A stretch of 24,207 nucleotides of DNA from a virus: positions 1 to 24,207 of IMG/VR virus record IMGVR_UViG_3300032092_000247, one strand, 5' to 3'. The notes below the pieces were generated by a model, which saw only the letters and a program-made list of their open reading frames with translations, was not told the origin of the DNA and searched no databases. Shown here piece after piece: positions 1 through 14,100 of this stretch. Made by a program: the position numbers and the translations under genes. Numbering within the stretch: position 1 is the first letter of the stretch; the number at the start of each line of letters is the position of its first letter.

Positions 1-344
1 TCGAGGAGGTCGTCCTCGACGGCGAACTCAAGCACCACGCGGGCGATCTTCATGACCGCGTTGGCGGTGGCGGGCGTCCTGATGGCGAGGGCGTCCCGGA
101 TTGACCGGATGTGCCGGCGCTTGATCTCGGTGATCGGCACCTCATGAAGCCCGGCCAGGCAATCCAGATGATGGCGATAGGCGGCCTTTGTGGTGGGCTT
201 CAGGTTGGCAAAGGCGGCAGACTTCTTATAGGCGACGACCAGCCTGCCAAAGGTCCAAGCGGCCGGGGCTGGCCGCTTGGAGTAAGAGTAGGTCTTAAGG
301 CTTCCGTCTGCGAGCCTTCGCGTCACGCTCTTTTTGGATGGCAT
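1..344 (-). CDS. int: Tyrosine recombinase / phage integrase, N-terminal part (cut by window edge)
   Basis: Integrase that would join the phage to the host chromosome by site-specific recombination. Only about 114 N-terminal residues are visible. They start MPSKKSVTRRLADGSLKTYS, a basic N-terminal arm typical of phage integrases. From about residue 25 a helical SAM-like core-binding domain follows (FGRLVVAYKKSAAF, later RRHIRSIRDAL and ANAVMKIARVVLEFA). The catalytic Arg-His-Arg-Tyr domain lies beyond base 1, so function rests on the N-terminal pattern. The ATG at 344 is the only start that retains the basic arm. It lies inside the excisionase-like gene and overlaps it by 50 bases, so the two are translated from one message. 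It is the last gene of the leftward operon, and attP is expected outside the window. Confidence 0.85.
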   Translation of the reverse strand, partial: MPSKKSVTRRLADGSLKTYSYSKRPAPAAWTFGRLVVAYKKSAAFANLKPTTKAAYRHHLDCLAGLHEVPITEIKRRHIRSIRDALAIRTPATANAVMKIARVVLEFAVEDDLL

Positions 345-549
345 CGACTGCTTTCTCTGTGGCTTCGTCGGCTGTGGCATGGTGCGCCTGCTGGCTGTGT
401 GAGGCAAGCCATGCGTCCAGCATTGTCACGGGATACAGGACGCATCGGCCTATCTTGAGGGGCTTGGGGCCGTGTCGGCGGAGGCTCATGCGAGACAACC
501 CGAGGTAGGTTGCTGCATCGTGCTCTCTGAGGGCGGCGCGGTCAGTCAT
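295..549 (-). CDS. Excisionase-like helix-turn-helix protein (AlpA / HTH_17 type)
   Basis: An 84-residue small DNA-binding protein. The N-terminal half (EHDAATYLGLSRMSLRRHGPKPLKIGRCVLYP) has the winged-HTH pattern of AlpA- and excisionase-type proteins: helix, GLSRMSLRR recognition helix, then a beta-wing around GRCVLYP and a DAWLASH tail helix. The C-terminal 30 residues are charged and Lys/Arg-rich. It sits directly before the integrase and overlaps its start, the usual place for a recombination directionality factor, so it may control excision. That role is inferred from position and fold. It overlaps the upstream 110-residue gene by 8 bases. It could instead be only a transcriptional regulator. 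Confidence 0.75.
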   Translation of the reverse strand: MTDRAALREHDAATYLGLSRMSLRRHGPKPLKIGRCVLYPVTMLDAWLASHSQQAHHATADEATEKAVDAIQKERDAKARRRKP

Positions 550-3400: not shown

Positions 3401-3496
3401 TTACTCGTCCTCCATTTTCATGATGATTGCGATAATCCCAAGCACAACGGCGAAGAAAAGAACGCCGTAAGCCCAGGCAGTAAGGATTCCGTCCAT
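3401..3496 (-). CDS. Single-span membrane peptide, 31 aa
   Basis: The first gene of the recombination operon. It is a 31-residue peptide starting MDGILTAWAYGVLFF with one hydrophobic span at about residues 6-26 and a charged end (MKMEDE). A GAGGAA ribosome site lies 6 bases before the ATG at 3496, and a strong promoter ends about 27 bases upstream. Its stop abuts the YqaJ start. The inner membrane is the likely location, with the acidic C-terminus outside the bilayer. Function is unknown. Small phage membrane peptides of this size can modulate host envelope processes, but nothing here shows that. Confidence 0.7.
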   Translation of the reverse strand: MDGILTAWAYGVLFFAVVLGIIAIIMKMEDE

Positions 3497-3516: not shown

Positions 3517-3533
3517 GTTGGGTTTATACCAAC
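3517..3533. promoter_or_regulatory. Putative repressor operator O1 (17-bp dyad over a -10 box)
   Basis: GTTGGGTTTATACCAAC, arms GTTGG/CCAAC around a 7-base centre. It covers the -10 element of the leftward recombination promoter, so a bound repressor would block polymerase. It differs from the site at 11912-11928 by one base. Three related sites lie at other promoters in the window. Confidence 0.65.
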
Positions 3534-3552
3534 CCGTAGCGCGGCACGTCAA
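3523..3552 (-). promoter_or_regulatory. Leftward promoter for the recombination / int operon
   Basis: On the minus strand: -35 TTGACG at 3552-3547, an 18-base spacer, -10 TATAAA at 3528-3523. The predicted start at about 3516 leaves a leader of roughly 20 bases that carries the GAGGAA ribosome site of the 31-residue peptide. A near-identical promoter lies at 11918-11947. I see no terminator between the upstream VRR-NUC gene and this promoter, so read-through from the cro operon could also feed these genes. Confidence 0.7.
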
Positions 3553-5291: not shown

Positions 5292-5392
5292 GGCCACCAC
5301 ATCCACGCCATGAACATCACCGCGATAAAGCACCAGGCGGCGCCGGCGAACATGATCCAGGCAATCACCATCATGGGGTCGGAGTCTCTCAT
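5288..5392 (-). CDS. Single-span membrane peptide, 34 aa
   Basis: A 34-residue peptide starting MRDSDPMMVIAWIM, almost entirely hydrophobic from residue 7 to the end. It is rich in Met, Trp and Ala and finishes WMWWP. Start and stop both form ATGA overlaps, with the methyltransferase stop and the helicase start, which strongly supports translation. It is probably an inner-membrane peptide. It shares size, topology class and placement inside an early operon with the 31-residue peptide at 3401-3496, but the sequences are not clearly related. No function can be assigned. Confidence 0.65.
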   Translation of the reverse strand: MRDSDPMMVIAWIMFAGAAWCFIAVMFMAWMWWP

Positions 5393-6558
5393 TGCGATTT
5401 TCCCAAGGCTTCAAGCATGGCGATGCGCTCGCCGATCCATCGCATCACCGGCGCGGCCATCGAGTTCCCTAGCGCCTTGTAGCGTGGGCCATCGGCGGCG
5501 GGCTTCCCGCGATTAGGGACTAGCGTGTAATCGTCGGGGAAGCCTTGCAGGCGCTCGCATTCGCGCGGGGTCAGGCGGCGCACGGCGGCGGCATAGGCAA
5601 TCGCTGGCGCGTGGGCCCCGGCTGCAAGCGGATGGCAAGCATCGCCCGGCTTTGGTTTGCTGAAATTTCCGGGACTGGTGATCTGCGTCGTATCAAACGC
5701 CATGGCTTGCCCTTGGTGGCTTTGCAGCGTCAGCGCGCAATCGTCGGCGGTATGAAGGCCGATGCTGCCGCCTTGCTGGTGCGCAAAAGCGGTCGTGATG
5801 AACGTCTCGCTTTCAAAGTCGCATTTGAAGCCTGCCCCCGGCTGCGCCAGCAGCGCGGGCGTCACGTCAATAGGGCCGCTTGTGCGGTTGCCACCAAAAC
5901 AAACCGGAATAAAGGCGCCGTTATTGTCTAGATCGGTTGTGCGAAAGCCGCCGCTTTGAGAGCTTCCACCAAGAGTTCCGGCAACACTTTCCCCCGCTTC
6001 TCGGCGCGGCGCAGAATGCCCCTGCAAGCTGTGGCGCTCAAAAAGAACCGCTGTGGCACGGCGCCAGTCTCCAAGGTATCCGACAACGAACACACGGCGG
6101 CGTCGCTGGGCCACTCCAAAGAATTGAGCGTCAAGGACTCGGTAGGCGATGCCATACCCGAGTTCGACCATGCCCCCGAGTATGGAACCAAAGTCCCGCC
6201 CTCCGTTCGACGACAAGACGCCGGGGACGTTCTCCCACACCAGCCAGCGGGGCCGTGTTCGGTCAGCAAGGCGGAGAAACTCGAGGGCCAGGTTGCCACG
6301 GTCGTCGTCCAGGCCGCCTCTGAGTCCCGCGATGCTGAAGGATTGGCAGGGGGTTCCTCCCACAAGAAGGTCGATTGCTCCATATTCATTGCCTTTAATG
6401 GTGGTGAAGTCCCCATGAAGCGGGACGTGCGGGTAGTGGTGTGCCAGCACGGCGCGCGGGAACGGTTCAATCTCTGAGAAAAATGCAGGCTCCCATCCGA
6501 GCGGATGCCAAGCTGCCGTTGCTGCCTCGATGCCCGAGCAGACTGATCCGTAGCGCAT
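5389..6558 (-). CDS. DNA (cytosine-5-)-methyltransferase
   Basis: A 389-residue C5-cytosine methyltransferase that transfers a methyl group from S-adenosylmethionine to cytosine in a specific DNA site. Conserved motifs in order: SVCSGIEAATAAW (motif I, residues 5-17), the catalytic TPCQSFS with C71 (motif IV), WENVPG (motif VI, 108-113), AQRRRRVFVVG (motif VIII, 150-160), RRLTPRECERLQGFP (motif IX) and GNSMAAPV (motif X, 364-371). A variable target-recognition region lies at about 175-320. The gene seems intact. No partner restriction enzyme is recognisable, so it is probably an orphan phage enzyme for evading host restriction or marking phage DNA. Recognition site unknown. It overlaps both neighbours by one to four bases. 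Confidence 0.95.
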   Translation of the reverse strand: MRYGSVCSGIEAATAAWHPLGWEPAFFSEIEPFPRAVLAHHYPHVPLHGDFTTIKGNEYGAIDLLVGGTPCQSFSIAGLRGGLDDDRGNLALEFLRLADRTRPRWLVWENVPGVLSSNGGRDFGSILGGMVELGYGIAYRVLDAQFFGVAQRRRRVFVVGYLGDWRRATAVLFERHSLQGHSAPRREAGESVAGTLGGSSQSGGFRTTDLDNNGAFIPVCFGGNRTSGPIDVTPALLAQPGAGFKCDFESETFITTAFAHQQGGSIGLHTADDCALTLQSHQGQAMAFDTTQITSPGNFSKPKPGDACHPLAAGAHAPAIAYAAAVRRLTPRECERLQGFPDDYTLVPNRGKPAADGPRYKALGNSMAAPVMRWIGERIAMLEALGKSQ

Positions 6559-6791
6559 CAGAACAGCGCCCCCTGGTCCGGCTCAGACTGCGGGCGGTTC
6601 TGGACATGGTCAGCGCAGTACCATTTGCCGAGCTTCGCGTAGCCCTCCTCGCGCTTGCCATCCATGATCAGCTTCAGGCCGATGACCGGGAAACAATTGA
6701 CCGCCTGGATGGCATCGGCGCCGCACACGTCGCAGGTGTTGCGCCACTTGATCGCGCCGGTTGATCGGCTTTTGAAAAGCTGGACCGGCAT
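6558..6791 (-). CDS. Small Cys-containing hypothetical protein, 77 aa
   Basis: A 77-residue protein starting MPVQLFKSRSTG. It has a CDVCGA pair and a later WYCADH, which together could bind one zinc (Cys, Cys, Cys and His), as in small phage zinc-finger proteins. An alternative GTG lies one codon upstream at 6794. The ATG at 6791 gives a one-base TGATG overlap with cro. The stop similarly overlaps the methyltransferase start. Function is unknown. Lying between cro and the methyltransferase, it is an immediate-early gene. Confidence 0.7.
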   Translation of the reverse strand: MPVQLFKSRSTGAIKWRNTCDVCGADAIQAVNCFPVIGLKLIMDGKREEGYAKLGKWYCADHVQNRPQSEPDQGALF

Positions 6792-6991
6792 CACGCCACC
6801 AGGTCGGTATGCGAGAGTGCAACCTTGCGCCGCTTCGCCTCATCCAGCAGGCGGCGGTGATACTTGGCCGGCACGTTGGCCCAACGAGTCACGGTGCTTT
6901 TGTCGATTCCCAGCAGGCGAGCGACCTCGGCCTGCGATCCAAATGCCTGAGCGAGGCGGGATACCACTTCGGTCTTGCGCTTATCCTCCAT
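6791..6991 (-). CDS. cro: Cro-like transcriptional regulator, 66 aa
   Basis: A 66-residue helix-turn-helix protein. The DNA-binding unit is at about residues 19-40 (SQAEVARLLGIDKSTVTRWA), followed by a VPAKYHRRLLDEAKRR helix, a pattern seen in Cro/YdaS-type phage regulators. It is the first gene of the leftward early operon, divergent from the CI-like gene, which is the classical Cro position. Its promoter (7021-7050) overlaps a candidate operator. Only a weak GGGGG ribosome-site match lies before the ATG at 6991. The expected role is to repress cI and promote lytic growth. The assignment rests on the HTH and on position. Confidence 0.82.
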   Translation of the reverse strand: MEDKRKTEVVSRLAQAFGSQAEVARLLGIDKSTVTRWANVPAKYHRRLLDEAKRRKVALSHTDLVA

Positions 6992-7020
6992 TGATTCCCC
7001 CGGAGATTGCTATGGCCCCC

Positions 7021-7050
7021 ATTATCACATTGTCGTTGGGTTTTTGTCAA
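7021..7050 (-). promoter_or_regulatory. Leftward promoter of the cro operon
   Basis: On the minus strand: -35 TTGACA at 7050-7045, an 18-base spacer, -10 GATAAT at 7026-7021 (or TGATAA with 17 bases). The predicted start at about 7014 gives a leader of about 22 bases before cro. The -35 and part of the spacer lie in the operator-like dyad at 7035-7051. It has the closest match to consensus among the promoters I found. Confidence 0.7.
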
Positions 7051-7051
7051 T
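7035..7051. promoter_or_regulatory. Putative repressor operator O2 at the cro promoter
   Basis: GTTGGGTTTTTGTCAAT. The left arm and centre match the operators at 3517 and 11912 (GTTGGGTTT), while the right arm is imperfect (CAAT for CAAC). It overlaps the -35 and spacer of the cro promoter. Its start is 36 bases from that of O3, consistent with binding on similar faces of the helix. Confidence 0.6.
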
Positions 7052-7070
7052 GGGCCTCGTGGTGTTTTCA

Positions 7071-7087
7071 GTTGCGTTTTGTGCAAC
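7071..7087. promoter_or_regulatory. Putative repressor operator O3 near the cI promoter
   Basis: GTTGCGTTTTGTGCAAC, a perfect dyad with arms GTTGC/GCAAC and a 7-base centre, the same architecture as O1 and O2. It overlaps the weak -35 element of the candidate cI promoter, so it could mediate autoregulation of cI or Cro repression of cI. Confidence 0.65.
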
Positions 7088-7102
7088 GGTGCGTAGTGTA
7101 AT
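7072..7102 (+). promoter_or_regulatory. Possible cI promoter (weak)
   Basis: TTGCGT at 7072-7077 and TGTAAT at 7097-7102 with a 19-base spacer. The match is poor, as is common for maintenance promoters that need activation. The predicted start at about 7109 leaves a leader of about 26 bases. No clear ribosome site precedes the ATG at 7135. The low score reflects the long spacer. Confidence 0.35.
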
Positions 7103-7134
7103 TTTTCCCGTGATGGCTTGGATTCACAATTGAG

Positions 7135-7704
7135 ATGGATACGATCTGGTTTCAGTCGCGGATAAAAACTCTCGGCAAAAGCCAGCGGGCGCTGGCGCAT
7201 GTGCTTGGAATCGACCCTGCGCAAGTCACCAACCTGCTAAAGGGGCGCAGGCGCATGCAGTTACCAGAGGCCGCGGCTGTTGCCGCGTTCCTGAATGTCT
7301 CAGTCGAAGATGTGCTTCAGCATGCCGGTCTTGCCGTGAGCGGCGGAGTTCGGCGCGTCAAGCTTGCCGGGTACGTCGATGAGCACGGGGAAATCCACTT
7401 ATCCGACCGGCCCGAAGGCGAGGTCGATGCGCCGGCACTGTCGCCGGATGGCACGATCGCCGTGCGCATGAAGGGCGACCAGATGCTCATGCGCAGCGGG
7501 GTTTTGTTCTTCGCGCCTGGCGTCGGCGTGAACCCTGACGCGATTGGCCGCCTGTCGGTGGCGCGGGTCGGCGGCGGGCCGTGGCCGGTCCGCACCATCT
7601 CGCCCGGCCTGGAGCCTGGTCGCTATGACCTGGCCGGACCTGCCAGGGATATCGTCGAGGCCAAGCTTTCGGCGGCGTCCCCGGTGCTCTGGATCAGGCC
7701 CTAG
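7135..7704 (+). CDS. CI-like phage repressor (XRE HTH plus degenerate S24-like domain)
   Basis: A 189-residue repressor candidate. The N-terminal XRE helix-turn-helix covers about residues 12-60 (SQRALAHVLGIDPAQVTNLL and LPEAAAVAAFLNVSVEDVL). The C-terminal part (about 75-189) follows the S24/LexA-type order: GYV..., AVRMKGDQMLMRSGVLFF, PGRYDLAG, VLWI. The usual GDSM serine is Gln at residue 116 (GDQM, 114-117), and the region normally holding the catalytic Lys reads PVRTIS (151-156). Self-cleavage therefore looks lost. The gene is divergent from cro and convergent with the primase, with stop codons overlapping in CTAG. Very probably it maintains lysogeny by binding the operators listed here; binding is inferred. 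Confidence 0.85.
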   Translation: MDTIWFQSRIKTLGKSQRALAHVLGIDPAQVTNLLKGRRRMQLPEAAAVAAFLNVSVEDVLQHAGLAVSGGVRRVKLAGYVDEHGEIHLSDRPEGEVDAPALSPDGTIAVRMKGDQMLMRSGVLFFAPGVGVNPDAIGRLSVARVGGGPWPVRTISPGLEPGRYDLAGPARDIVEAKLSAASPVLWIRP

Positions 7705-10430
7705 ATCGCGTCCATCTCCATCTGGCCCGGCACCTCTGAGGGCGCCTCAAAGTGCCTCCATGGCAGCAGCGTGCCGCGCGCCTTCAGCCCTGGCGCGAAG
7801 TGCGTCACGTTCAAGCGCTGCGCTCCGTCGAGCTCGCGCAATGGGCGGCTCCAGTCGGCTTCCCATTGGGTGCCGCGCAATATCTCGCGCCCGAACCGCG
7901 CGCCCGTGGCGGCTATCGCAACCCCTTCCGGCGTGACCTTGATCCCAAGGGGCGCAAGCTGGCGCTTGGCGTCGGATGGCTCGATGACGTGCGTGTCCTG
8001 CATGCCCCGCGCGCTCTGGATGAGCTCTGCCACGGTGGCTTGCTTGTTCGCCCCGCCGCTCGTCACCATGAGGCGTGAGGTGAGGATGCGCTCGAGCAGG
8101 CGCTCGCGGTCTGGCCGGGCGGCGATGGCCGTGTGGTCGTGCCAGTCATATCGCCGAACGAATCCGACCGCCTCATCGAAGGTAATCTTCCTCGTGGTGT
8201 GCAGGCTCACATAGCCCGCGATCAGCGTCCCGATCTGGTCCGCCGCGCGCCGGTCCTTGAGCTCCTGGGCGGCGGCGTCCACGCATGTCGCCACATTGGC
8301 GAGCAAGGCGTCGATGTTGGCCCATGTGCGCAGGAATAGCGCGCTGGCGAAGGTCGGCGTGAACCACGCCCGGATGTCGGCCATCAGGGCCTTGAATGCC
8401 TCCTCCGCCTTCTCGTCCACCCGCTTCCTAAGCACGAGCTTGGTGATCCGTGTCTCATCCGCATGCTGCTTGATGCTGTGCTCGATCGAGGAAAAGCAAA
8501 ACGCAGACCGCACAGTAAAACTCATAGCCTCGCCGCTGGCTGTGCCTTTGCTGACGGTGGACCCGCTCGAGGCAAGCCGGGCCAGATCCAGGATGCCGGT
8601 GATCCGCATTTGGGCGCGCTCGCTTTCCGCCTCGGCTTCGTCCAGCACGATCGGCATGGCGTCGGCGCCAAGCGTTTGCCGGATGCCGGCCTCGGTGGTC
8701 GAGCCCTCAAAGCGCTGCGCAAAGACCCCGATCAAGCGCCACACCACGTCCAGCAGCACGGTCGTCTTGCCGGACCCGGCCCCGCCCGAGATCCAGATAT
8801 GGGGTCGCCAGTGCAGGGCGCCGCACACCGGGGCGATGGCGATCCAGCCCGCGAGCGCAACGGCGGAGAGGGGGTTTTCCCAATTGAGCCTAGCGCAAAG
8901 GTCCGCGACCCGCTTGGCTTCCGTCGCGCCGGCGGGCTCAACGTCGAGGTTCACGTTTCGCATGGGCCGTGTGGCCGGGTAGATGTAGGTCTGGCTCGCC
9001 TCATAGAGATCAATCCGGCGCTGCCGCGAGAGGGCGAATTGCCCAAGGTGGAACACGGGCTCGCTGCCATCGGTCCAAGCGCCGCGCCCGCGCAGCCGGT
9101 CGGGGTGATAAGTCCCGGCCCTGTGCGCTGAGTTCATGAGGGCATTTGCTGCGGCAAGCTCGCCATTGCGGCCGCTCCCAAATTCGCGCTCCCAATAATC
9201 AAGGGGCGCTAGCTGGATGAGGTTCTTCCAGGTGTGGCTTGAGGCGGACAAGGCCACAAGCTGCCTCGTGCCCCGCGGCATGTAGTAGTAATACCCCCCA
9301 TCAAACCCGAGCACCTGATAGTAGGCGTCGAGGTCGCGCGGCTTGGTGGGCTCCCCCTCGATCGGTGGTGGTGGCGGTGGCGCGTCGTCTTCCGGCTCCG
9401 GCTGCTCCGGCTCTGGTGGCTCTGGCGGCGGCGGCTCAGGCGGTGGTGGCGCGTCGGGCTGGTAGGGCAGGGCATTTGCCCGCAACCACGCCACAGCGTC
9501 AGACACGCCCCAGCCCTCGGCTTCAGCGTCGGCTGCATCCCAGCCCTTCGCGCGGGTCTCCTCCGGCTCGGCGATCTTGATCACGCACCCAAGCGCGGCA
9601 AGGCGTGCGGCGATATCACGCGCGGCGTTCATGCCTGGTTCGTCAGCGTCTGGCCAGATGACCACGCTGCGGCCGGCCAGGATATCCCAGCAGGCATGCT
9701 TCACGCCTTGGGTGCCACCCGGCCAGGTGCAGACCGAAAGCGGCGGCAAGAGGCGCGCGGCGGCATCGGCGGCCTTCTCGCCCTCCACGATGATGATCTG
9801 CCCGGTCGCGATTGGCGCGCGGGGCCAATAGAGCGGCCGCGGCGTCGGGAATGGCACGGTCGCCCATGCCTCGCTGCCATCGGCAAGCCTGACGTAGCGC
9901 ACGGTCGGCGTGACCTTCTTCCCGTCATCAAACTCGACCCGCATCACATAGCCGAGAAGCTCGCCGTCGATGTCTCGGTACGGGAAGACCATGCTTGGCC
10001 GCATGCGCCAGATGCGTTCCTTGCGCGGGTTCCAGACCTCGATCTCGGCCCCCGGCTGAAACATCTCATGGCTGTCGCCAATCTCCGCGACCTCGATGCC
10101 GGCATAGGGGTCGAATTGCTCAACCGCGGCGCGCTCAGGGTCGCGCCTGGTGGGTTTCCATTCATCCGCCCCGGTCAGCGTGCGCGCGGCCTGGCCGATC
10201 GAAACCCCGTCAATGCGGGCGATGAAGTCCACCACGTCGCCATGCTCGCCGCACCCGTAGCAGTGGTAGAATTCCTTTGCGTCGGAGACCGTGAAGCTGG
10301 GGCTCTTTTCGTTGTGGAACGGGCAGAGGCCCTTAAACTCGCCCTTGCCGGCCTTTTCGAGCCGGACCCGGCGGCCAACAACGGCGGAGATCTGGTGCTC
10401 GCGGGCGAGCGCCTCAAAGTCAATCTTCAT
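7701..10430 (-). CDS. Primase-helicase fusion (CHC2 zinc finger, TOPRIM, P-loop ATPase)
   Basis: A 909-residue replication protein. Domains: a CHC2 primase zinc finger with C36, H39, C57 and C60 (CPFHNEKSPSF, FYHCYGCG); a TOPRIM domain with IIVEGEK (E216) and WPDADEP (D261, D263); a proline/glutamate-rich linker at about 327-360; then an ATPase/helicase domain with Walker A GGAGSGKT (549-556) and MPIVLDEAE (Walker B, D597-E598), resembling DUF927-type phage helicases. The C-terminus ends MEMDAI. It should synthesise primers and unwind DNA at the phage fork. It is coupled by ATGA to the tandem-HTH gene upstream. Its stop overlaps the cI stop, with no visible terminator, so its transcript may run antisense through cI. 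Confidence 0.93.
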   Translation of the reverse strand: MKIDFEALAREHQISAVVGRRVRLEKAGKGEFKGLCPFHNEKSPSFTVSDAKEFYHCYGCGEHGDVVDFIARIDGVSIGQAARTLTGADEWKPTRRDPERAAVEQFDPYAGIEVAEIGDSHEMFQPGAEIEVWNPRKERIWRMRPSMVFPYRDIDGELLGYVMRVEFDDGKKVTPTVRYVRLADGSEAWATVPFPTPRPLYWPRAPIATGQIIIVEGEKAADAAARLLPPLSVCTWPGGTQGVKHACWDILAGRSVVIWPDADEPGMNAARDIAARLAALGCVIKIAEPEETRAKGWDAADAEAEGWGVSDAVAWLRANALPYQPDAPPPPEPPPPEPPEPEQPEPEDDAPPPPPPIEGEPTKPRDLDAYYQVLGFDGGYYYYMPRGTRQLVALSASSHTWKNLIQLAPLDYWEREFGSGRNGELAAANALMNSAHRAGTYHPDRLRGRGAWTDGSEPVFHLGQFALSRQRRIDLYEASQTYIYPATRPMRNVNLDVEPAGATEAKRVADLCARLNWENPLSAVALAGWIAIAPVCGALHWRPHIWISGGAGSGKTTVLLDVVWRLIGVFAQRFEGSTTEAGIRQTLGADAMPIVLDEAEAESERAQMRITGILDLARLASSGSTVSKGTASGEAMSFTVRSAFCFSSIEHSIKQHADETRITKLVLRKRVDEKAEEAFKALMADIRAWFTPTFASALFLRTWANIDALLANVATCVDAAAQELKDRRAADQIGTLIAGYVSLHTTRKITFDEAVGFVRRYDWHDHTAIAARPDRERLLERILTSRLMVTSGGANKQATVAELIQSARGMQDTHVIEPSDAKRQLAPLGIKVTPEGVAIAATGARFGREILRGTQWEADWSRPLRELDGAQRLNVTHFAPGLKARGTLLPWRHFEAPSEVPGQMEMDAI

Positions 10431-10840
10431 GCTGCCTGCACCGCGCGCGCCTCAATGTCCGCCCTGGCCGCCTGCATGGCGTACCAGACCAGCCTCGACG
10501 CCCCGGTGCGCTCATAGCGGCACCATGATTCCTGCGATATTCCCAAGACTTGCGCCACGACTCCTTGTGTCGCGCCGGTCGCAATGCGCCAGGCTGTGAC
10601 CTCGTGGCCTTTCTTAAACGAGGCCCTGTGCCCAATCGGTCGGCCGCTTGCCTTCAATTTCTCACGGGGTTTCAGGCTCTGAAGGGCCATGAGGTTGCCA
10701 GTTTTGACGCGACCGCGCTCCCAATTACAAACCGTCATAGCGGTCACGCCTAGCGCAATAGCCACGTCGCGCTGGGATAGGTTGCGCTCAACCCGGGCCG
10801 CGCGAAAGGCAGCGCCGGGGAGGGTGGTGGGGGTGGTCAT
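10427..10840 (-). CDS. Regulator with two helix-turn-helix domains, 137 aa
   Basis: Two XRE-like helix-turn-helix units lie in one chain: the first at about residues 20-44 (LSQRDVAIALGVTAMTVCNW), the second at about 90-114 (TQGVVAQVLGISQESWCRYE). A basic linker (KPREKLKASGRPIGHRASFKK) joins them. Tandem HTH proteins can bind two half-sites as a monomer. Directly before the primase, it may be an origin-binding or late-control protein; this is inferred from position only. It has ATGA overlaps with both neighbours. The longest noncoding region, with a palindrome and repeats, lies upstream of this operon and is a plausible target. Confidence 0.75.
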   Translation of the reverse strand: MTTPTTLPGAAFRAARVERNLSQRDVAIALGVTAMTVCNWERGRVKTGNLMALQSLKPREKLKASGRPIGHRASFKKGHEVTAWRIATGATQGVVAQVLGISQESWCRYERTGASRLVWYAMQAARADIEARAVQAA

Positions 10841-11911: not shown

Positions 11912-11928
11912 GTTGGGTTTATAGCAAC
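11912..11928. promoter_or_regulatory. Putative repressor operator O4 over a -10 box
   Basis: GTTGGGTTTATAGCAAC, identical to O1 except for one base in the right arm. It covers the -10 of the replication-operon promoter. The conserved flanks and the same position relative to the -10 argue for one shared repressor. Confidence 0.65.
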
Positions 11929-11947
11929 GCTCCAATCACGCCGTCAA
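11918..11947 (-). promoter_or_regulatory. Leftward promoter of the replication operon
   Basis: On the minus strand: -35 TTGACG at 11947-11942, an 18-base spacer, -10 TATAAA at 11923-11918. It is the twin of the promoter at 3523-3552: same hexamers, same spacer length and the same CCCAACA after the -10. The predicted start is about 11911, giving a leader of about 30 bases with the GGAGGA ribosome site. Confidence 0.72.
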
Positions 11948-12077: not shown

Positions 12078-12158
12078 AGATATATATAGAGATAGAGAGA
12101 GAGATAGACATATATATATAATAATAATAATAATCTATTTATGTATGTTGTTGTTGTT
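12078..12158. repeat. Low-complexity microsatellite tract (TA, GA, ATA, TTG runs)
   Basis: Runs of TA, then GA, then TA, then ATA trinucleotides, and finally TTG trinucleotides follow each other within about 80 bases. This is by far the most AT-rich stretch of the window. It could be an unwinding element, a slippage-prone spacer or a promoter upstream region. It encodes no plausible protein on either strand. Confidence 0.7.
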
Positions 12159-12227: not shown

Positions 12228-12256
12228 TTGCAAGGGTGGCGCGGAATTGCTATTTG
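12228..12256 (+). promoter_or_regulatory. Possible late promoter before terS (weak)
   Basis: TTGCAA at 12228-12233, a 17-base spacer, TATTTG at 12251-12256. The -10 match is poor, so it would probably need activation. If real, transcription would start about at the terS ATG (12263) and give a nearly leaderless message, which would agree with the absence of a ribosome site there. Confidence 0.3.
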
Positions 12257-12262
12257 CGCAAT

Positions 12263-12742
12263 ATGCCAACCGAAAAACCCAAGGCCAAGCGAGGCCGGCC
12301 TTCCGGCTTCACGGAAGAGATCGCGGCGGAAATCTGCCGGCGAATGGCGCTAGGCGAATCCGTGCGGAAGATCCTGACCGAGCCAGGCATGCCGGACTGG
12401 GCCTCGGTCTGGCGTTGGCTTGAAAGCAACGAGGTTTTTCGCGCCCAATACGCAAGGGCTCGGGAAGCCCAGGCTCATGCCCTTGTGTCGCAGATCTTCG
12501 ACATCGCGGACGACGACTCGGCGGATTGGTCCGAGCGTGATGGCGTGCCGGTGGTGAACGGCGAGGCGATCCAGCGCTCACGCCTGCGGGTCGACACGCG
12601 CAAGTGGTTCGCGTCCAAGGTGCTGCCCAAGCTCTACGGGGACAAGCTTAGCCACGAGGTCACGGGGCAAGGCGGTGCGCCGCTCGTGATCCAGGTCGTG
12701 ACCGGCATTGATCGCAACCCGGGCGACGACGCCGGGAAATGA
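12263..12742 (+). CDS. terS: Terminase small subunit
   Basis: A 159-residue DNA-recognition subunit of the packaging motor. It begins MPTEKPKAKRGRPSGFTEEI; KRGRPSxxT, then an AAEICRRMALGESVRKILTEPGMP helix-turn-helix, is a pattern typical of Sf6-like small terminases. WRWLESNEVFRAQYARAREA and the RLRVDTRKWFASKVLPKLYG block are also conserved in the family. An upstream GTG at 12236 would add nine residues, but its only purine-rich match sits directly against the codon. The ATG at 12263 also lacks a clear ribosome site. The stop overlaps terL as ATGA. It is the first gene of the late operon. Confidence 0.9.
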   Translation: MPTEKPKAKRGRPSGFTEEIAAEICRRMALGESVRKILTEPGMPDWASVWRWLESNEVFRAQYARAREAQAHALVSQIFDIADDDSADWSERDGVPVVNGEAIQRSRLRVDTRKWFASKVLPKLYGDKLSHEVTGQGGAPLVIQVVTGIDRNPGDDAGK

Positions 12743-14051: not shown

Positions 14052-14068
14052 GTTGGTAAAATTACAAC
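14052..14068. promoter_or_regulatory. Operator-like dyad upstream of the portal-region promoter
   Basis: GTTGGTAAAATTACAAC, extended to CGTTG...CAACG, has the GTTG-N9-CAAC architecture of the four early operators, and its first seven bases match the reverse complement of O1. It ends four bases before the -35 of the promoter at 14072-14100 rather than overlapping it. It may be a fifth, activating site, or a chance resemblance. Confidence 0.4.
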
Positions 14069-14071
14069 GTA

Positions 14072-14100
14072 TTGCAGTATTCTCAATGATTTGCTATAGG
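14072..14100 (+). promoter_or_regulatory. Internal promoter between terL and the portal gene cluster
   Basis: TTGCAG at 14072-14077, a 17-base spacer, TATAGG at 14095-14100. It lies in one of the few intergenic gaps of the late region. The predicted start near 14107 leaves a leader of about 20 bases with a GAGGG ribosome site before the ATG at 14128. It would boost portal expression independently of the terminase. Confidence 0.5.

Follow-up and report, generated by a model that had tools for sequence, protein, structure and literature searches.

The gene described here is very probably that of a working immunity repressor, carried by a temperate, podovirus-like phage, which would not be able to cleave itself. 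This degree of confidence belongs to the non-cleavable, working repressor, and to neither of the induction routes considered below. By the window we mean the whole virus record, 24,207 bases long, in which the gene lies. We may understand its action as follows. The helix-turn-helix (HTH) domain of the protein would hold operators of the form RTTGS-N7-KCAAY at the leftward early promoters (those of cro, of the YqaJ-RecT genes and of the primase) and beside the start of cI, and this occupancy would keep the lytic genes, xis and int silent; promoters and operators are recognized by their sequence, and binding is the likely reading of their arrangement. The C-terminal domain, of the LexA/lambda/186 fold, would provide dimer or higher-order contacts only. 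The residues of its former active centre are visibly replaced, and the chemistry of LexA and lambda CI leads one to expect that such a protein would be unable to cut itself. As a consequence, the prophage would not be induced by RecA-stimulated cleavage of its repressor, and another factor would be needed: most likely a small phage- or host-encoded antirepressor that inactivates the protein, as Tum does with 186 CI, or else a flip driven by Cro and by transcripts of the primase promoter that enter cI from its 3' end, in antisense.

The gene and the two codons on which the argument turns are placed as follows:
7135..7704, plus strand: CI-like repressor, with the HTH domain at about residues 3-66 and the C-terminal domain of LexA/lambda/186 fold at about residues 73-189.
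7480..7482, plus strand: codon of Q116, in the catalytic Ser column of the alignment (7135 + 3 x 115).
7591..7593, plus strand: codon of R153, in the catalytic Lys column of the alignment (7135 + 3 x 152).

The sequence-only reading had proposed a CI-like repressor here, with a C-terminal half that follows the S24/LexA order, and had called for structure prediction against LexA and lambda CI. The open reading frame (189 residues, ATG start) has in its N-terminal part an HTH of the lambda repressor superfamily (HTH_3 of Pfam, E 2.3e-7, 31.2 bits against a cut-off of 23). The fold predicted for the C-terminal half agrees with the order that had been read, though the Pfam S24 model stayed below reporting at E 1 over that half. 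An AlphaFold2 model, computed from 27 sequences (the window repressor and proteins of related loci only), has a mean pLDDT of 87.5 and a pTM of 0.59. When it was compared with the PDB by Foldseek, the top matches were a lambda-186 hybrid repressor (7jvt, E 1.6e-7) and lambda CI (3bdn, 4.7e-6), followed by RecA-bound lambda CI and LexA. VIA-align gave Z 9.6 with the lambda C-terminal fragment 2ho0 (3.2 A over 113 residues), Z 9.4 with the 186 CI C-terminal domain 2fkd (2.7 A over 101 residues, 13% identity) and about Z 9 with LexA chains, values that are middling and stand in the same list as HTH-only matches. Among the matches listed, all those that span about residues 70-189 are LexA, lambda CI or 186 CI. 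The model thus places the C-terminal half in the LexA/UmuD-type fold, and the identification of the gene as a CI-like repressor is borne out by domain and fold alike.

Self-cleavage in LexA and lambda CI is carried out by a Ser-Lys dyad that acts on an Ala-Gly bond. In the window repressor GDQM occupies residues 114-117, with Gln at 116, and PVRTIS residues 151-156, exactly as had been read from the sequence. When aligned with dyad-bearing relatives, the protein has Q116 where they have the catalytic Ser, R153 in place of their Lys and the E-H of GYVDEHGE at the position of the scissile Ala-Gly. The 37 residues that separate Q116 from R153 equal the S119-K156 spacing of Escherichia coli LexA (numbered after the PDB titles, 1jhh for S119A and 1jhe for K156A). 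In the model, a predicted strand at 150-157 contains R153, and Q116 falls in the loop that follows strand 108-112; alignment, spacing and the placing of R153 in a predicted strand are together the basis for the assignment of the two residues. The claim that the self-cleavage centre is dead is thereby upheld, Ser, Lys and Ala-Gly all being replaced. That GDSM had simply become GDQM holds as far as Gln does stand in the Ser column, but more than one letter has changed: the stretch between the two columns counts 37 residues in the window repressor and in its nearest relative L014 and 36 in L015, against 40-42 in dyad-bearing relatives, of which five were measured, and in L015 (57% identical) the GDQM motif is gone, with RSRD-LM in its place. 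The stretch being shorter than in the dyad-bearing proteins, the loop has been remodelled, so that GDQM is a remnant and not a nearly intact site. An error of sequencing or of frame is ruled out as the source of GDQM, since L014, a separate IMG/VR contig with a 97% identical protein, also has Q116 and R153. Replacement active-site residues are ruled out as well, none standing in the proper alignment columns.

The earlier reading implied a peculiarity of a single protein, and this is where it has to be corrected. A tblastn search against phages returned 21 records, which amount to 12 distinct phages once Serratia phage OS31, which matches in the HTH part only (29% cover) and is not in our alignment, is set aside. 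These 12 named phages span five genera (Lessievirus, Pavtokvirus, Lastavirus, Ittyvirus and Parlovirus), with repressors 28-33% identical to that of the window over 68-97% of the protein. IMG/VR contributed 34 loci with repressor homologues, including the nearest relatives, L014 (97%) and L015 (57-58%), and the bacterial genome collection a single one, a Caballeronia contig. Within the phylum of Caballeronia, 16 of the 398 genomes sampled match the family profile at 1e-5, mostly through HTH-only or S24-like proteins, and the profile can be aligned with bacterial S24 proteins that retain the dyad. The alignment joins 38 distinct family C-terminal domains (counted after exact duplicates and L043, which has no C-terminal domain, had been left out) to six dyad-bearing bacterial relatives drawn from those 16 genomes; the six were picked by G(D/E)SM, so that their Ser is there by selection while their Lys is not.

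Across the 38 family members, the residue in the Ser column is D in 21, E in 8, N in 4, Q in 2, and T, G or F in one each, and never Ser; in the Lys column it is A in 27, R in 5, G in 4, and S or V in one each, and never Lys. All 12 named phages are without both. Missing in 38 of 38, the dyad is thus absent as a property of the whole family. Since Ser, Lys and Ala-Gly are absent here, and Ser and Lys family-wide, self-cleavage of the repressor by the known chemistry appears very unlikely. Cleavage might still proceed through a rearranged site that employs another Ser and another Lys, for example S121 and K113, and 33 of the 38 do have a Ser or Thr one column past the former Ser column; yet the window protein has Met in that column, the Lys column is devoid of Lys throughout, with a Lys adjacent to it in one member of the 38, and the scissile Ala-Gly persists in a single member, so that we consider such a rearrangement hardly credible. 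That single member, the repressor of phage JC1 (L003), keeps Ala-Gly despite the loss of both Ser and Lys. Outside the alignment, three distant bacterial S24-like relatives were read by eye: L058 and L060 seem to have lost the dyad too, and L066 has kept GSSM and the Lys. Judging from L058 and L060, the dyad may have been lost more than once.

Repressors of the non-cleavable kind are already known. Like the window repressor, CI of coliphage 186 combines an HTH domain with a LexA/lambda-like C-terminal fold, and it is not known to have the Ser-Lys dyad; a LexA-type fold without dyad is what our protein shares with the 186 CI/Tum kind, with only 13% identity over the aligned domain and no counterpart of Tum recognized among the genes named here. 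It is the antirepressor Tum that inactivates CI of 186 (PMC7708051). The Gifsy repressors GfoR and GtgR are non-cleavable as well, being CI-like proteins of about 136-150 residues that match the N-terminal domain of lambda CI over nearly their full length (PMC3121763), whereas the window repressor keeps a C-terminal LexA-type domain that is catalytically empty. With lambda CI and LexA it shares the fold, the order of elements and, through Q116 and R153 at the Ser and Lys columns, the LexA spacing, but it has neither Ser nor Lys nor the scissile Ala-Gly. The repressors of Bcep22-like and related phages are its true homologues and have likewise lost the dyad; they differ by a longer ex-catalytic loop, RT(A/T/S/N)(D/E/N)(S/T), and the window differs from these phages in having an epsilon15-like portal and an operator motif that is not in common, and from Lessievirus in particular, where co-directed RecB and RecT genes follow cI. 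What is new is the family-wide instance of a LexA-type domain without its protease. A narrowly worded literature search returned no paper on an S24-type prophage repressor lacking catalytic autocleavage; the point may still be published.

The repressor gene is embedded in the following context:
3..344, minus strand: 5' part of a tyrosine integrase gene, running off the left edge (the whole gene is in L068, 5028-6014, minus strand).
295..549, minus strand: Xis-like HTH protein (phrog_66, E 1.3e-4).
6791..6991, minus strand: Cro-like HTH protein of 66 residues, divergent from cI (P22_Cro, E 1.4e-6).
7701..10430, minus strand: DNA primase/helicase gene, convergent with cI, the two 3' ends overlapping by 4 bases.

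As the integrase gene runs off its end, the window is a fragment. Leftward of cro follow genes for a C5 methylase, a helicase-like protein (named by reading its sequence), YqaJ, RecT, the Xis-like protein and the start of the tyrosine integrase; by this gene content, integrase, Xis-like and other early genes together, the phage would be temperate. Its body genes look podovirus-like: the portal is 51% identical to that of epsilon15, and the terminase is best matched by uncultured phages. The C5-cytosine methylase, at 5389-6558 between cro and the helicase-like gene, has near its place in L014 (3659-4660) an unrelated N6/N4 methylase, which suggests a methylase swap between otherwise similar phages. 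A 137-residue protein with two HTH segments, encoded in the primase operon (10427-10840, minus strand), is a possible further regulator.

The Cro-like protein, 48% identical to its L015 counterpart, reaches 28.4 bits against P22_Cro, under the Pfam cut-off of 30.2. Around it and at the other early promoters the following elements can be read:
7021..7050, minus strand: promoter of the cro operon, TTGACA-18-GATAAT.
3523..3552, minus strand: promoter TTGACG-18-TATAAA, upstream of the YqaJ-RecT genes.
11918..11947, minus strand: promoter TTGACG-18-TATAAA of the primase operon.
7035..7051, no strand assigned: operator candidate GTTGGGTTTTTGTCAAT, overlapping the -35 hexamer from which the cro promoter starts.
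7071..7087, no strand assigned: operator candidate GTTGCGTTTTGTGCAAC, symmetric (GTTGC-N7-GCAAC), 36 bp from the site at 7035..7051.
3517..3533, no strand assigned: operator candidate that overlaps the -10 hexamer of the 3552-3523 promoter.
11912..11928, no strand assigned: operator candidate that overlaps the -10 hexamer of the 11947-11918 promoter.
12246..12262, no strand assigned: operator-like site between GTG 12236 and ATG 12263, where the ORF that precedes the terminase (12236-12742) begins.
14071..14087, no strand assigned: operator-like site in the gap that precedes ORF 14128.
14052-14068, no strand assigned: weaker operator-like site in the same gap.

The 17-bp matrix behind these sites was built from four, window 7035 and 7071 and their two L015 counterparts, the pair having equal 36-bp spacing in L014 and in L015, where the rest of the region has mostly diverged. 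Nine sites of the window score at least 14, two of them being training sites; 60 first-order simulations gave 0.32 such sites on average and never more than 2. Besides those listed, sites at this level stand at 3426, 5391 and 12414, the last two inside genes; the sites at 11912 and 12246 fall inside ORFs if TTG or GTG starts are used, yet upstream of the next in-frame ATG. Operator candidates overlap all three near-consensus leftward sigma-70 promoters of the window, where 0.6 near-consensus promoters would be expected by chance, and the one rightward match (12105-12134) is without any. All three promoter-operator pairs are kept in L014, and the single near-consensus promoter of L015 (6064-6035) is overlapped by an operator candidate likewise. 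This is the layout of a CI-type switch, as far as sequence can tell: a divergent cro-like gene and operator-like sites at early promoters, to which CI, Cro or both would bind. The copies near the start of the terminase region (12246, 14071), beside those at 3517 and 11912, raise the possibility that repressor or Cro may also act on late genes; an AT-rich simple-repeat tract with GAGA, TATA and ATA runs covers 12080-12150, in the gap ahead of the terminase genes. A family-wide operator was considered and rejected: the window, L014 and L015 have the motif at high rank before cI, weaker versions of it are seen in L020 and L026, and in most of the other members it is absent. Control by CtrA was also discarded, the window containing no TTAA-N7-TTAA.

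It could be argued that such a repressor is decaying, no longer functional, in a phage that is becoming strictly virulent, and some relatives are indeed described as giving no lysogens, or unstable ones (PMC10269572). Comparison of the window with L014 speaks against it: dN is 0.0133 and dS 0.210 for CI as a whole, 0 and 0.193 for its first 70 codons, 0.021 and 0.220 for the C-terminal part after codon 70. (Cro has 0.027 and 0.255, and the primase 0.017 and 0.250.) With dN far under dS, the CI gene is under purifying selection, strong in both halves, and a pseudogene is ruled out. The operators are conserved as well, the site at window 3517 differing from its L014 counterpart at 1551 by a symmetrical change of both arms (GTTGG...CCAAC to GTTGC...GCAAC), and the integrase and Xis-like genes have been retained. 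Decay therefore strikes us as quite improbable, and the catalytically empty domain of a working repressor would have been kept for another role, most simply dimer or oligomer contacts.

How the working, non-cleavable repressor would be lifted is a matter on which we are more tentative. The route to which we give a little less than even weight is that of a small antirepressor, controlled by LexA or by the host, that binds and disables the repressor. The C-terminal domain of 186 CI is among the best fold matches, and two precedents are at hand: LexA-controlled Tum induces 186 (PMC7708051), and the Gifsy repressors, uncleaved, are inactivated by LexA-controlled antirepressors (PMC3121763). On the other side, the ANT domain PF03374 was found in none of 16 phage records, none of the PHROG matches of the small ORFs scanned names an antirepressor, and no SOS box is seen at a plausible promoter of the window: its two alpha-type LexA boxes are both within coding sequence, none being at the operator-bearing promoters, and CTGT-N8-ACAG has no exact site. 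One alpha-type box is present in the left 7.4 kb of the L068/L014 contig, just beyond the last lysis ORF. Most small early ORFs are without family match, and an unrecognized antirepressor may be among them. Antirepression is reportedly the subject of a paper on SPC32H, an epsilon15-like phage. A second S24 protein can be dismissed, PF00717 being found in 0 of 16 records, with the control positive in 12 of 14 genomes.

Somewhat less weight goes to a spontaneous lytic flip, not driven by the SOS response, through Cro and transcriptional interference: as repression weakens, the primase promoter (11947-11918) would fire, and its transcript, antisense through cI and into the cro operon, would lock the lytic state. 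The overlapping 3' ends of cI and the primase gene, between which no terminator was found in 6500-8000, the operator candidate on the primase promoter, and the same tail-to-tail arrangement in L014 (from its ORF positions) all fit this scheme. It is not general, however: the two genes of L015 lie about 470 bp apart, and a strong terminator-like hairpin (5987-5957) stands in the gap. In that phage the leftward near-consensus promoter, with an operator candidate on its -10, is followed within about 80 bases by this hairpin of 13 pairs (5957-6064 overall), and the unit could yield a short RNA, for which lambda oop is a precedent.

The lysogeny of the relatives is described in contrasting terms. 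For CSP3 the authors found no lysogens, and those of Lessievirus are described as unstable (PMC10269572), so that some members of the family may make scarcely any use of lysogeny; JC1 shows stable lysogeny, in a paper whose main text is without the words 'mitomycin', 'SOS' and 'RecA' (PMC9144972). A bolder view would have the S24-fold pseudo-protease repressors of the five named genera and of many uncultivated phages fully uncoupled from RecA, with lysis in the branch of the window decided by Cro and primase-operon antisense, at zero SOS input; we regard it as doubtful.

Phage repressors of the CI/LexA fold are commonly presumed to be SOS-inducible, and here is a whole phage family without that chemistry. 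The alignment of 38 proteins and the set of operators offer direct and cheap tests. Family members, some of which have been proposed for phage therapy, need a different test of inducibility, and screens based on mitomycin C could miss the prophages governed by repressors of this family.
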